In this document: positions 2 to 19,404 of the stretch, in pieces
Layout: each line of letters starts with the position of its first letter
How positions within the stretch are numbered: position 1 is the first letter of the stretch
Source of the DNA: a virus
DNA: 31,327 nt
IMG/VR virus record: IMGVR_UViG_3300039018_000118
Location: 1-31,327 of that record
Strand: one strand, 5' to 3'
The notes under the pieces: model-generated
Told to the model about the DNA's origin: nothing
Seen by the model: the letters and a program-made list of their open reading frames with translations, nothing else
The model's database searches: none
Position numbers and translations under genes: made by a program

Positions 2-388
2 ATGGGCACATCCAAGTTCGGCGGCGCAGCCACCACCTGCGTGGCCATCCCAGATGATGATGCAAATGCCACGAAACCCCACAAAAAACCTACAAAGCAC
101 GACGAGAACGTGCGCACAGTCGAGCGTGCCTGGTGGGCCTCGGGTGCCGAAGAGCGCGAGGGTTTTCCCTACGTCAGCAGGTCGGCGCTGCGTGAGCTTC
201 TGGTCAAAGATGGCGCGACCGAGCGCACCGCAAAGAACAAAACCGAGGCATCCAGACCGGATGGAATCATCTCGCAAATGCTCAACTCGGGCGCTTTGCA
301 ATCGACTGAACACGGCTGGATTTTCATCAACAAGGCCCAGGCAAGTGCCATGCTGATGCAAAAAAATGGGGGACAAAATCGCCCCTAA
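2..388 (+). CDS. C-terminal part of a probable phage replication ATPase (RepA-like), truncated by the window edge
   Basis: The frame is open to the left edge, and the Met at position 2 is probably internal, so the gene is partial. The visible 128 residues begin with a Gly/Ala-rich stretch, pass through a charged linker (about residues 18-36), and end in a compact region (about 38-118) with the look of a winged helix: the segments around VERAWW, SRSALRELL and GIISQMLNSGAL, closed by a short HGWIFI strand. Similar tails are known at the end of AAA/RecA-type replicative ATPases of phages and plasmids. No Walker motif lies inside the window, so the ATPase assignment is inference. The gene sits directly upstream of a repeat-rich region with a DnaA box, which fits a replication role. 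It could instead be another DNA-binding protein. Confidence 0.5.
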   Translation: MGTSKFGGAATTCVAIPDDDANATKPHKKPTKHDENVRTVERAWWASGAEEREGFPYVSRSALRELLVKDGATERTAKNKTEASRPDGIISQMLNSGALQSTEHGWIFINKAQASAMLMQKNGGQNRP

Positions 389-463
389 ACGCCCCTGAGT
401 GCCCCTAGGGGTTTTTAGGGGTTAGGGGCAAAAGCCCGTTAAATCGCCCCTCCCCGCCCCTAA

Positions 464-475
464 AACGTATACGTT
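464..475. promoter_or_regulatory. 12-bp perfect palindrome AACGTATACGTT inside the repeat region
   Basis: AACGTATACGTT equals its own reverse complement. It is flanked by inverted repeats, GCCCCT on the left (456-461, with two extra A before the palindrome) and AGGGGC on the right (476-481). A dyad this regular in a short non-coding region suggests a dimeric DNA-binding protein site or the core of the origin. Confidence 0.4.
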
Positions 476-518
476 AGGGGCGGTAGGGGCAACGGGATGC
501 GGAAAATCAGGGACAAAG

Positions 519-527
519 TTATCCACA
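519..527 (+). promoter_or_regulatory. DnaA box TTATCCACA
   Basis: This is an exact match to the strongest bacterial DnaA-binding consensus. It lies about 20 bases before the next start codon and just after the GCCCCT repeat cluster. A single 9-mer can occur by chance, but its place in a short repeat-rich non-coding stretch makes host DnaA recruitment plausible. Confidence 0.5.
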
Positions 528-548: not shown

Positions 549-731
549 ATGAAGCAACACCGAGAGACCCCAGACTTCAAGACCTGGCAGCTCGACACCT
601 TGGCCAAGTTTGCGACCGAGTGCTACCTCCGGCTGCAGGACGAGCAGGCCGCAAACGAGCAGCTCAGGCTCGACCTCAAAGATGCCATGAAACTGGCGCG
701 AATCCAAAACATGAAGGAGAATGCAGCATGA
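549..731 (+). CDS. Small hypothetical protein (60 aa) ahead of the methyltransferase
   Basis: This is a 60-residue charged protein predicted to be largely helical, with a heptad-like segment around residues 29-50 (DEQAANEQLRLDLKDAMKL) that could form a short coiled coil. I recognise no domain. No strong ribosome binding site precedes the ATG. The TGA overlaps the ATG of the ParB-methyltransferase gene (ATGA at 728-731), so the two are probably translationally coupled. It is the first gene after the candidate origin. Confidence 0.6.
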   Translation: MKQHRETPDFKTWQLDTLAKFATECYLRLQDEQAANEQLRLDLKDAMKLARIQNMKENAA

Positions 732-1989
732 CCACGAAAACCCACGATTTAAAAGCATCGATCGAGTACATCTCGGTCGACAAGCTCATTCCCTACGCAC
801 GCAACAGCAGAACCCACAGCGACGCACAGGTGGCCCAGATTGCTGCATCGATCAAGGAATTTGGCTTCACCAATCCGGTGCTGATTGATGGGGGGGGGGA
901 ATCATTGCAGGACACGGTCGAGTCATGGCGGCACGCAGCATGAAAATTGATACAGTCCCGTGCATCCGACTTGGCCACCTGACTGATGCACAGAAAAAGG
1001 CCTACGTGATCGCAGACAACAAGCTAGCGCTGAATGCTGGGTGGGATAACGAGTTGCTGGCCATCGAGCTGGGCGAGCTGGGTGATCTCGGTTTTGACCT
1101 TGAGCTGACTGGCTTCACCGACGACGAGATCAAAGCACTTATGCCGGTGCAAGGCACTGACGGCCTCACCGACCCGGACGATGCGCCAATTGTTCAGGAA
1201 ACAGCAACCACGGTGCCAGGCGACATCTGGGTGATGGGAAAACACCGGCTGCTCTGCGGAGACTCGACCAGCATCGATGACCTGACCAAACTCACTGGCG
1301 GTCAGTTGGTGGACATCTGGCTGACAGATCCACCTTACAACGTGGCGTACGAAGGCGGCACAAAAGAAAAGCTGACCATCAAGAACGACGAGATGGGCGA
1401 CGATCAGTTTCGACAGTTCTTGCGCGACGCCTACACGGCTGCCGACATGGTGATGAAACCCGGCGCGGTGTTTTACATCTGGCACGCTGACAGCGAGGGC
1501 TACAACTTCCGAGGCGCTGCCAAAGACGCTGGCTGGACGGTGCGGCAGTGTTTGATCTGGAAGAAGTCCTCCCTCGTCATGGGGCGGCAGGACTACCACT
1601 GGAAACACGAGCCTTGCCTGTACGGCTGGAAAGAAGGTGCAGGCCACCTCTGGGCAGCCGACCGCAAGCAGACCACCATCCTTGAGTTCGACAAGCCAAC
1701 TCGCAACGGCGAACACCCGACCATGAAACCCGTGGCTCTGTTTGAGTACCAGCTCCTGAACAACACAAAAGGCGGCGACGTAGTGCTCGACAGCTTTGGC
1801 GGCAGCGGCACCACTTTGATCACAGCCGAGAAGAACGGTCGAGTCGCAATGCTGATGGAACTCGATCCACGTTATTGCGACGTCATCGTGAAACGCTGGC
1901 AGCAATTCACAGGCAAAATAGCAATTCACGCAGAAACTGGACAACCTTTCGCGGAGGTTACAAATGGCAACCAAGAAACAAAAACTTGA
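728..1989 (+). CDS. ParB-domain DNA methyltransferase (beta-type, DPPY), frameshifted at a poly-G run
   Basis: The product is predicted to be a DNA adenine-N6 or cytosine-N4 methyltransferase with an N-terminal ParB/Srx-like domain. Translation from ATG 728 (AAGGAG at 714-719) gives 54 ParB-type residues ending in PVLID. It then enters ten G (890-899) and goes out of frame, ending at 943. The other frame resumes with IIAGHGRV, the normal ParB continuation, and runs to 1989. One more G, or a -1 ribosomal shift, would restore a protein of about 420 residues, the usual size of such fusions. The downstream part carries TDPPYNV (about residues 200-206 of the restored protein, catalytic motif IV) and DSFGGSGTT (SAM-binding motif I); that motif order is the beta class. 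The 3' end overlaps the next gene. Likely roles are modification against host restriction or at packaging sites. Whether the break is a sequencing error, phase variation or recoding cannot be decided here. Confidence 0.85.
890..899 (+). repeat. Homopolymer of ten G at the methyltransferase frameshift
   Basis: Ten consecutive G span the point where the reading frame changes. The flanking codons on both sides encode matching ParB-family sequence (PVLID before, IIAGHGRV after), so the frame break maps exactly to this tract. Such tracts are prone to polymerase slippage and to sequencing miscounts. Confidence 0.95.
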
Positions 1990-16803: not shown

Positions 16804-19404
16804 ATGGCAACATATAAAGTCCAAGCACCTGATGGCAGCATCATTGAGCTAGAAGGCCCAGAAGGCGCAACTGATGTGCAACTGGGTCAGGCTGCGCAAG
16901 CAGCCTATGCGCAGCGCCAGCAACGCGCTCAAGCAGCCCCAGCATCTGCTCCTGCCGCAGCGCCTATGGCTGCACCTGCTCCTGCAGTTTCGGCTCCTGT
17001 TGCACCCGCTACAGACCTATCGGCATTGTCGGCTCAGTTTGCTGGTCAGCCAGCACCGGAGACCACTTTGTCCGGCCTCGCTGGCGCAGCCACCCGTGGC
17101 CTAGCATTGCCTGCCGCTGGTGCTGCTGCTGGTGCGTTAATAGGCGCACCGTTTGCTGGCGTTGGCGCTGTGCCTGGCGCAATTGCTGGGGCTGGTGCAG
17201 CCACCTTGGCCCAGGTCGTTGGCGACCCCATCGTCAGCACCATCAACAGCCTGTTTGGCACGCAGTACACGATGCCAACGGATGCGATGGCTGATCTGCT
17301 GACTCGCGTTGGTGTCCCGCAGGCCAGGAGCCAGGCCGAAAAGATTGTCCAAGCCACTGCTGCCGGTGCAAGCATGGCCGGAGGCACGGTGGCTGCTGGC
17401 CGAGCAATCCAGTCTGCTGCTGGCCAAGCGGCTCCTGTGACCCGCGAGGTCGGTCGCATGTTGGCCACCCAGCCAGGCCTGCAAGCTGTCAGCGGAGCTG
17501 CTGGTGGTGCGGCTGGCCAAGTAGCCCAGGAAATGGGCGCTGGTACCGCAGGGCAAATTGCGGCATCGGTTGCAGGTGGTCTGACTCCTCTTGGCGTTAC
17601 GGCGGCAACACGCAGGGCACGCAGAGCACCGGCACCTGCTCCTGCACCTCGCGTCGAGCCAACCTTTGAGGCTCCTCCTGCAGCACCCGCTGCGATGGCA
17701 CCTGAAGCCCCTGCAGCCCCTCCAATGGCTGCGGCAACACCAGAGGCGCCACCTCCTGCCCCCGGCCCTGCTGGCGCACCTATGGGCACGGCGATGGCCC
17801 CTGAAGTGCCGCCTGCGGCCCCTGGGACTGCCGTTCCGGCTGGCGATGTGGGCGAGGTGTTGAACCTGGCTCGCAAGGCAGGAGGCATGGGTCCAGGGTC
17901 CACTGCGGCCAAGGCCAAGCTGGTCGACATGGCCCAGGTTAACCCCGAGGCCCGTGCAGCAGCCGAGCGCTTGGGCATTGATGTGCCGTTTGACGTACTG
18001 AGCGACAACCCGCAGGTGCGCAGCGCTGTGGGCCTGACCCGTGCGTTGGTCGCAGGTGAGGCCGAGGCAGCATGGGAAAATACTGTTCGCCAGTCCATCC
18101 AGCGTGCAGACGAAATTTCGCAGCAGTTCGATGCGGCCTTTATTGAAGGCAGGCCAGCCCCAGGGCTTACATCACAAAAGATCGTGGATTCGCTTACAGC
18201 AACTCGGACGAAAGTAATTGAAGATGCACAAAATCTTTATAACCAAGTTCAAGACGTTGTTTTAAAAGAAACTCCGGTAAACGTTGATAGCTTGAAAAAA
18301 ACTATCAGTGATATTCGAAGAGATTACCCTGGGTCTTCTAAAAATAATCCAGCCATAGAAAAACTTGAAAAATTAGCCGAAGAAGGCATGACGTATGGTG
18401 ATTTGTCTTTTGAAAAGAGTTTTTTAGGAGCTGCAAAACGTGCAGGCACAGATAACGTTTACTCTAAAAGTTTAAACCTTGGAATAATTAAACAGCTTGA
18501 AGGTGCTTTAGCTAAAGATCAACTTGACAACGTTGAACGCTTAGCTGGAGAAGAAACACGCAGACAGCTCCGTGCTGCTCATCTGTTAACTGCAAAGCAG
18601 AAGGCACTTGAAGAACGCATCATTGGCGCATTCGGCAAAGAAATTGATGGCAGCGTGGCCCAACGTATGCAGACGGCCATCAGTACGGCAGCCAAAGGCG
18701 ATGCCGCTGCCTTCAACCGGCTGATGAAGGTCGTGCCAAAGGAGCTGCAGAAGGAGACGCTGGCCACGGCGCTGGCGTCTGTCACTGCAGGTAAGGCGGC
18801 AGGCCGTGCGGCGGCAGGGTCTGTCGAGACTGTGTTTAGCCCTGCTGAATTCACCAAGGTCTACCGTGGCCTTCGTGCCAACCCGCCTGTTTATTCCCAG
18901 ATGGTCAAGATCATGGGGCCAGAGTGGGACCGTGCATCGCGTGACCTCTACGAAATTTCAAGGCGCATCGCAGACGCACAGGCTCGCATCCCAACCACCG
19001 GCAAGGCAAACCAGATACTTGGTGAGGCTGCAGTCGAGGGATTGATGGGCAAGATCATGTCCAGCAGTCTGGCGCAGCGTGCAGCCACTGGAGTTGCCAG
19101 CATGGTCCCTGGCGGTGGATTGGTGGCACCAGACATCGTTGGGTTTATGGCTGGAGCCAAGGGCGCTGGCGTGCAGAAAGCGGCCAAGCTGTTTGCCTCT
19201 CCAGAGTTCCAGGAGCTGGCTGTGCAGTCTGCCACCAAAGGCGGCAATCCGAGCCAGGCGGCCATGCGTCGCACGGCCATGAGCAAGGCGTTTGGGGATT
19301 TCGCAAGAGAGGCAAACCTGCCACAATCTCTGGACGCACGAATTCAGTACCTGCAGAACGCAATACAGGCAGGACGACAATTTGAGCAGGAGCAACAACA
19401 ATGA
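16804..19404 (+). CDS. Large DNA ejection protein, P22 gp16-like position, with Ala/Pro linkers
   Basis: The protein has 866 residues (P22 gp16 has 609). It starts with a small domain (MATYKVQAPDGSIIELEGPE) common at the start of phage ejection or internal virion proteins. An Ala/Pro linker (about 40-75), a Gly/Ala-rich hydrophobic stretch (about 90-160, possible membrane insertion), a second Pro-rich linker (about 272-350) and a long helical region (from about 380) follow. Residues about 455-589 come from DNA clearly richer in A+T than its surroundings (18170-18570), a sign of intragenic exchange. The TGA overlaps the tailspike ATG (19401-19404). A lytic or other catalytic domain is not visible. 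Confidence 0.7.
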   Translation: MATYKVQAPDGSIIELEGPEGATDVQLGQAAQAAYAQRQQRAQAAPASAPAAAPMAAPAPAVSAPVAPATDLSALSAQFAGQPAPETTLSGLAGAATRGLALPAAGAAAGALIGAPFAGVGAVPGAIAGAGAATLAQVVGDPIVSTINSLFGTQYTMPTDAMADLLTRVGVPQARSQAEKIVQATAAGASMAGGTVAAGRAIQSAAGQAAPVTREVGRMLATQPGLQAVSGAAGGAAGQVAQEMGAGTAGQIAASVAGGLTPLGVTAATRRARRAPAPAPAPRVEPTFEAPPAAPAAMAPEAPAAPPMAAATPEAPPPAPGPAGAPMGTAMAPEVPPAAPGTAVPAGDVGEVLNLARKAGGMGPGSTAAKAKLVDMAQVNPEARAAAERLGIDVPFDVLSDNPQVRSAVGLTRALVAGEAEAAWENTVRQSIQRADEISQQFDAAFIEGRPAPGLTSQKIVDSLTATRTKVIEDAQNLYNQVQDVVLKETPVNVDSLKKTISDIRRDYPGSSKNNPAIEKLEKLAEEGMTYGDLSFEKSFLGAAKRAGTDNVYSKSLNLGIIKQLEGALAKDQLDNVERLAGEETRRQLRAAHLLTAKQKALEERIIGAFGKEIDGSVAQRMQTAISTAAKGDAAAFNRLMKVVPKELQKETLATALASVTAGKAAGRAAAGSVETVFSPAEFTKVYRGLRANPPVYSQMVKIMGPEWDRASRDLYEISRRIADAQARIPTTGKANQILGEAAVEGLMGKIMSSSLAQRAATGVASMVPGGGLVAPDIVGFMAGAKGAGVQKAAKLFASPEFQELAVQSATKGGNPSQAAMRRTAMSKAFGDFAREANLPQSLDARIQYLQNAIQAGRQFEQEQQQ
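18170..18570 (+). other. AT-rich segment inside the ejection protein gene
   Basis: Over about 400 bases the codons change to A/T-ending forms (many AAA, GAA, GTT, TTA, AAT), unlike the GC-rich codons on both sides. The frame stays open throughout, so this is a clean in-frame replacement. The encoded segment is helical and Lys/Glu-rich. A segment exchanged with a phage of lower GC content is the simplest reading. Confidence 0.75.

Follow-up and report, generated by a model that had tools for sequence, protein, structure and literature searches.

The origins of most environmental phages are, as far as we are aware, unknown, and the locus described here raises the question of whether a cluster of short repeats lying directly behind a probable replication gene is one of them. 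It is found at the start of the virus record IMGVR_UViG_3300039018_000118 (positions 1 to 31,327; we refer to this whole stretch of 31,327 bases as the window), where an initial annotation had proposed a candidate origin made up of at least six exact GCCCCT/AGGGGC copies in about 110 bases followed by a perfect DnaA box. The features of the locus are as follows, with the strand given where it applies:

2–388, + strand: 3' end of repA (last 128 amino acids), 98–100% identical to the C-termini of the same protein in the five nearest relatives (L002–L006)
381–490: array of eight exact AGGGGC/GCCCCT copies, spaced by 9–10 bp within most arms, the proposed RepA-binding iterons
381–429: hairpin 1, with GCCCCT (381, 391, 401) opposite AGGGG (407), AGGGG (417) and AGGGGC (424), recognised from the sequence, DNA folding with shuffles, and conservation
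435–496: hairpin 2, CCCGTT-AAATC-GCCCCT-CCCC-GCCCCT-loop-AGGGGC-GGT-AGGGGC-AACGGG, recognised from its covarying stem and an independent DNA pattern search
464–475: apical palindrome AACGTATACGTT, in which the TATA core is mostly kept and the flanks change in pairs
496–502, + strand: GATGCGG, directly after hairpin 2 and conserved in relatives
519–527, + strand: DnaA box TTATCCACA, an exact match with conservation and a fixed spacing to the array

The repeat array and the upstream gene

In the relative L002 the full-length protein encoded by the upstream gene has 690 residues, in which Toprim_3 and AAA_25 are the only Pfam domains, and the helicase part matches RSF1010 RepA (PDB 1g8y, residues 353–515, E 4.8e-7). 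On these sequence matches the product of the upstream gene is a fused TOPRIM primase and RepA-type helicase, here named RepA, and the annotation of a probable replication gene immediately upstream of the repeats was borne out by this L002 homologue. The repA stop codon of the window falls inside the first GCCCCT repeat.

The count of at least six exact copies proved to be conservative, as eight are present in 381–490 (GCCCCT at 381, 391, 401, 446 and 456, and AGGGGC at 424, 476 and 485), accompanied by CCCCT/AGGGG variants. Across the whole window the word occurs 22 times compared with a shuffled mean of 19.8, so that it is not enriched window-wide and only its clustering stands out. The rate in the rest of the window is 0.05 per 110 nt, and in a word-free scan no other 6-mer cluster in the window was as dense as 381–490 (8 copies vs 0.1 expected). 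This is the arrangement looked for in an iteron origin, in which one short word is clustered beside an initiator gene (8 copies in the array of the window). Coding constraint was ruled out as the source of the repeats, as the repA stop codon sits at differing repeats or ahead of them. We also note four more GCCCCT copies within 120 nt at 17707–17823, inside an ORF (16804–19404) with Ala/Pro-rich coding, which are probably explained by codon use.

The repeats fold into two tandem hairpins (381–429 and 435–496), a feature absent from the initial annotation, and the longest perfect hairpin is just modestly longer than those of controls because the stems contain bulges. No AT-rich gap separates hairpins 1 and 2 in the window family, and the subfamily to which the window belongs has no AT-rich stretch (AT 0.47 downstream of repA and 0.48 upstream), which is unusual for an origin.

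Conservation and covariation in close relatives

The annotation could be challenged by relatives that keep the flanking genes and have lost the repeats, and when these were checked the array was found directly after repA in all 80 loci fetched via the C-terminal protein (the L014 contig ends after two copies; it should be noted that related phages and loci of the same contig are not independent in our counts). The hairpin 2 DNA pattern, searched for in viral contigs without using repA, was found in 75 contigs, in all of which it lies downstream of repA. Eight of these were already among the 80 loci, and for the 67 stretches that were new, tblastn placed repA upstream in 65; L187 is another part of the L023 contig, where repA is present, and the short upstream flank of L221 reads as the RepA C-terminus. 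Among the 75 matches, the array is located about 0.3 kb beyond repA in L182, L189 and L210, where an extra small ORF lies between the two and the array is intact.

For the analysis of covariation we used an alignment (A1) of 42 of the 49 distinct elements, leaving out L014 and six distinct type-B second hairpins. The two-hairpin structure is paired in 99.4% of cells, and two-sided changes were seen in 75 cells compared with 25 in shuffles (0/500 as high), with sliding of the pairing partners by 1–3 columns leaving 1–9 two-sided cells. Hairpin 2 has no varying pair with a G–U intermediate and its arms have unequal bulges, and together these make a symmetric double-stranded dimer site an inadequate explanation of the symmetry, which points instead to base pairing inside a single strand of DNA. 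In the window family the word hardly varies in either arm while the remaining stem pairs covary, and these sequence patterns suggest that within this family the word is read while the remaining stem is folded. At the apex, a CTATAG-like motif was found in 85/87, 31/39 and 48/61 members of three RepA groups, compared with 2, 4 and 4 upstream.

A different second hairpin with a CTACCCCCT core was seen in 11 of 81 loci (L007, L016, L017, L019–L021, L045, L046, L052, L060 and L061), in which it is joined to the ordinary first hairpin as though hairpins were exchanged as modules.

The DnaA box in the subgroup of the window

The perfect DnaA box annotated after the repeats is present as TTATCCACA at 519–527 and is the sole exact copy in the window, and at one mismatch 3 were found compared with 3.4 expected, making the box weak on its own. 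Of the 87 distinct family members, 55 have an exact box, compared with 0/87 of the upstream controls, and in all 55 carriers its distance from the first base of the last AGGGGC is 33 or 34 nt; this conservation and fixed spacing make it meaningful despite the weak single-window statistics. When the exact box is counted by RepA group (55/87, 7/39 and 0/61), it proves to be a subgroup feature and is thus not a defining part of the origin.

Other words in more distant RepA relatives

Further from the window family, RepA relatives show the same layout after repA with other words (GGTACA, GGTTCA, GGGACA, CGTAAC, CTACAA, GTATAA and others), and examples are given here:

MW202867: TGGGACA
Salicola phage CGphi29: GGGGACA
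Idiomarinaceae phage 1N2-2: CGGTACA
Alteromonas phages PB15 and XX1924: TGGTTCA
Two MAG contigs: CGGACC and CGTAAC
Roseobacter phages: CTGGAAA, CTACAAA and GTATAAA

From 359 loci with a usable RepA match we obtained 350 usable downstream stretches, 200 of which were distinct. One 6-mer occurs at least five times (up to 16) in 187 of these 200 regions, compared with 0/200 for the 300 nt just upstream and 57/2713 for other 300-nt windows from the same loci, and the words with at least five copies comprise 46 distinct 6-mers in 23 clusters. The cluster after repA ranks first in density among all 6-mer clusters of the record for the window and for three of the four named phage genomes, and ties for first place in the fourth. 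Thirteen of the 200 regions have fewer than five copies, and in the case of L182 and L210 this is because the extra ORF separates repA and the array. The thirteen also include two distant RepA relatives from Manatee Spring phages, L314 (MW202475) and L318 (MW202711), in which there is no word array after repA and minus-strand genes are found there instead. Many members of the Roseobacter-type group have a gap of about 45–57 bp between iteron sets, and the AT content downstream of repA in this group is 0.57. We also note that the first 300 bases of L404 contain ACGGCT 16 times in 300 nt, distant from the repA 3' end.

Lattice agreement between arrays with different words was at least 80% in 127 of 1111 pairs (median 0.33 vs 0.25 for random) and was strong just within subgroups, and some arrays on one lattice have altered all copies together. 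Such joint alteration has a bearing on a variant of the origin reading in which double-stranded iterons alone matter and the hairpins are a by-product of hairpin-templated mutation or concerted repeat turnover, with no selection for folding. This variant would accommodate both the joint alteration and the two-sided changes, all of which are perfect Watson–Crick pairs as templated correction would yield, but covariation extends to the outer stem of hairpin 2, in which there are no iterons, and this stem is kept in 42 distinct sequences despite the unequal bulges, and the apical motif is retained in 85/87. We consider it unlikely, and prefer an origin in which the folding of the array matters as well.

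The word and the RepA C-terminal domain change together

The analysis of coupling between word and protein included the 155 of 200 regions with at least five copies and enough protein, and compared the last 110 residues of RepA in pairs whose helicases are at least 90% identical. In the Roseobacter-type group the median C-terminal identity was 0.94 for pairs with the same word (65 pairs) and 0.70 for those with different words (24 pairs), and in the 1N2-2-type group the corresponding values were 0.90 (9 pairs) and 0.31 (12 pairs). Just a single word is present in the RepA group to which the window belongs, and the coupling is therefore demonstrated in the two other groups. The same relationship can be followed along the DNA of phages CRP-831 and CRP-823, which have different words and about 95% nucleotide identity through most of the helicase, falling to about 0.4–0.85 across the C-terminal domain and array and returning to about 0.9–1.0 in the next gene. 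Identity drops likewise over the C-terminal domain and array between CRP-811 and CRP-821, which also have different words, and no such drop was seen between CRP-821 and CRP-831, which have a common word. The best reading of these sequence comparisons is that the C-terminal domain and array form a specificity cassette that would evolve or be exchanged as a unit.

The AlphaFold2 model of the window-type C-terminal domain has the order H-E-H-H-H-E-E (pLDDT 79.8), and both C-terminal domain types are predicted to be winged helices (the alignments used for structure prediction, A3 and A4, included 46/53 selected relatives plus the window and 26/29, respectively). Winged-helix DNA-binding proteins are among the best PDB structure matches of the models, with modest Z values of about 7–8 that speak for the fold only, and the profile match between A3 and A4 is weak (probability 37%). 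Nothing credible came from searching PDB sequences with a profile of the C-terminal domain, and the 50 matches listed in the two C-terminal structure searches contained neither P4 alpha nor any other replication initiator of a plasmid or phage. The search for plasmid relatives of the domain found none, and no plasmid record was covered to at least 80% by the full protein. When pairs with the same and different words were contrasted residue by residue, the changes were found across the whole C-terminal domain and not in the recognition helix alone, and for this reason we claim no recognition residues. From the coupling, together with the winged-helix predictions and their modest structure matches, we infer that the RepA C-terminus binds the word.

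Probable assignment as a replication origin

Taken as a whole, positions 381–527 are very probably a phage replication origin acted on by the adjacent RepA. This keeps the candidate of the initial annotation as the best reading of the sequences, supported by conservation in 80/80 loci, by the word arrays of 187/200 regions and by the coupling between word and C-terminus. In the mechanism we propose, the winged-helix C-terminal domain of the adjacent RepA would read AGGGGC at the eight or more phased, inverted sites, and the bound words would gather RepA helicase–primase subunits on the array. Because the words are inverted, the array could fold into two hairpins, either as a cruciform or as a single strand once opened, and these hairpins would give the RepA helicase single strands for loading and the RepA TOPRIM domain templates to prime. 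In the window's subfamily host DnaA may assist from the box 33–34 nt past the last word. The array, its constant position behind repA, the covariation of the hairpins and the coupled change of word and C-terminal domain are seen directly in the sequences, and RepA binding, hairpin extrusion, loading, priming, the order of these steps and the start of replication at the array are all proposed here on inference.

Other roles for the array have to be weighed against an origin. The first is a structured RNA between repA and the next gene with a role in mRNA stability, translation control or attenuation, as might be imagined for an array which sits between two co-directional genes and whose + strand folds well as RNA (z −5.0). 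This we judge very improbable, as the 75 changed cells of hairpin 2 are all two-sided with no G–U intermediates, no Rfam match scored above the gathering threshold in the window and six loci, the repA stop codon sits at varying repeats, and the word changes with the RepA C-terminal domain, for which an RNA role has no need. In addition, a scan of positions 250–800 found no promoter-like and no + strand terminator-like sites (two − strand terminator-like sites were found, compared with a shuffled mean of 1.0).

The absence of promoter-like sites in 250–800 also weighs against the array as an operator, at which bound RepA would merely autoregulate the rep region while replication begins elsewhere. 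A word-reading domain and its sites are predicted under either reading, but here the sites are found at the 3' end of repA, and up to 16 word copies exceed what an operator needs, so that this too is a very unlikely role compared with that of an origin. A packaging site (cos/pac) might be considered given the terminase genes downstream, with the terminase small subunit gene beginning about 1.4 kb downstream in the window, but we reject it as extremely unlikely on gene order, as the array adjoins repA and not terS, PB15 has several kb of other genes between them, and terS lies elsewhere than beside the array in both CRP-823 and CRP-811 yet the array is still found after repA.

Cumulative GC skew was followed in the window, the four named genomes and two circular Roseobacter phages, and gave no signal at the array that could be separated from that of gene orientation. 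The skew is flat for the window and MW202867, and in 1N2-2, PB15 and CGphi29 the minimum near the array is close to a divergent-transcription point 1–2.4 kb upstream. GC skew speaks neither for nor against an origin at this site.

A more tentative proposal, which we regard as possible though somewhat doubtful in its entirety, is that these arrays represent a widespread and undescribed class of origin, whose hairpin array would keep a fixed lattice and be rewritten wholesale to a new 6–7-nt word as the winged helix of a self-loading RepA primase–helicase changes. The domain and array would then be one cassette moving between lytic phages that are nearly identical elsewhere, an exchange probably driven by the advantage of an origin that satellites, rival phages or origin-directed nucleases do not recognise, with the extruded hairpins acting as loading and priming sites.

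Comparison with known replication systems

In the alpha protein of satellite phage P4, primase, helicase and a C-terminal origin-binding domain are combined in one protein, and ori and crr are two separate cis sites. RepA resembles alpha in having a primase, a helicase and a (predicted) C-terminal origin-binding domain in one protein, but differs in its helicase family and from the use of two separate cis sites in P4. The initiator, helicase and primase of RSF1010 are three proteins (RepA-RepB-RepC), with hairpin priming sites beside the iterons of oriV. The likeness here is in the helicase domain, which is homologous to RSF1010 RepA (PDB 1g8y), and in the proposed hairpin priming sites by the iterons, and the difference is in one polypeptide compared with three proteins.

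The passages cited for the SaPI/PICI elements describe an initiator helicase, often with a primase, followed directly 3' by an origin of short iterons which is recognised by the C-terminal domain and whose iteron sequences vary between elements; in these satellite elements two iteron sets lie around an AT-rich region, and the Rep helicases have their relatives among the DUF927 or D5/Primase_Cterm proteins (PMC6092414, PMC7581432). Compared with these descriptions, the array is likewise located directly 3' of repA (80/80 loci, with 75/75 pattern matches downstream), but the window family has two covarying hairpins instead of an AT-rich middle and the Rep helicase is RepA/AAA_25 with TOPRIM rather than DUF927 or D5/Primase_Cterm. 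The carriers also have terminase, capsid and tail genes of their own and are not satellites: the window has terminase genes and further large ORFs in a long + strand block, and the relative MW202867 is annotated with terminase, P22-like portal, scaffold and coat.

For the Vibrio cholerae PLE, the passages cited report that the RepA DNA-binding domain changes in step with the origin and the remainder of the protein is conserved, with module swapping and counter-selection by an origin-directed nuclease also reported (PMC8263062). The initiator described there is a RepA_N protein with an N-terminal binding domain and no predicted primase or helicase, and the origin has three semi-palindromic iterons of about 30 bp (PMC8263062). 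Binding domain and origin change as a pair in the phages with RepA arrays too, but here the initiator has a primase and helicase, the domain predicted to read the origin is C-terminal, and the words are short and placed in hairpins. No description of a repA-adjacent word array was found in the passages returned by our literature search.

If the assignment is correct, it provides a rule by which the origin can be located from sequence in a wide group of phages from fresh and marine waters, among them Roseobacter phages CRP-811, CRP-821, CRP-823, CRP-831 and CRP-406, together with a natural set of initiator domains and their matching words (46 6-mers in 23 clusters) that could serve to work out and test a winged-helix recognition code. 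The near-identical pairs CRP-821/811 and CRP-831/823, whose words differ, would permit a direct test in cultured lytic phages of origin incompatibility and exchange, which in the passages cited are addressed for satellites such as PLE (PMC8263062).

Finally, we note two observations on the neighbouring genes. A phosphoadenosine-phosphosulfate-reductase-like gene directly precedes repA in the closest relative (L002, 3479–4333), and such a gene is found two genes downstream of repA in CRP-831. The ParB-N and N6/N4 methyltransferase gene of the window (620–1989) is broken into two ORFs at a run of G residues at about 891–899 and is intact as one ORF in L002 (6727–7989), and the split at this homopolymer is probably a sequencing or assembly error.
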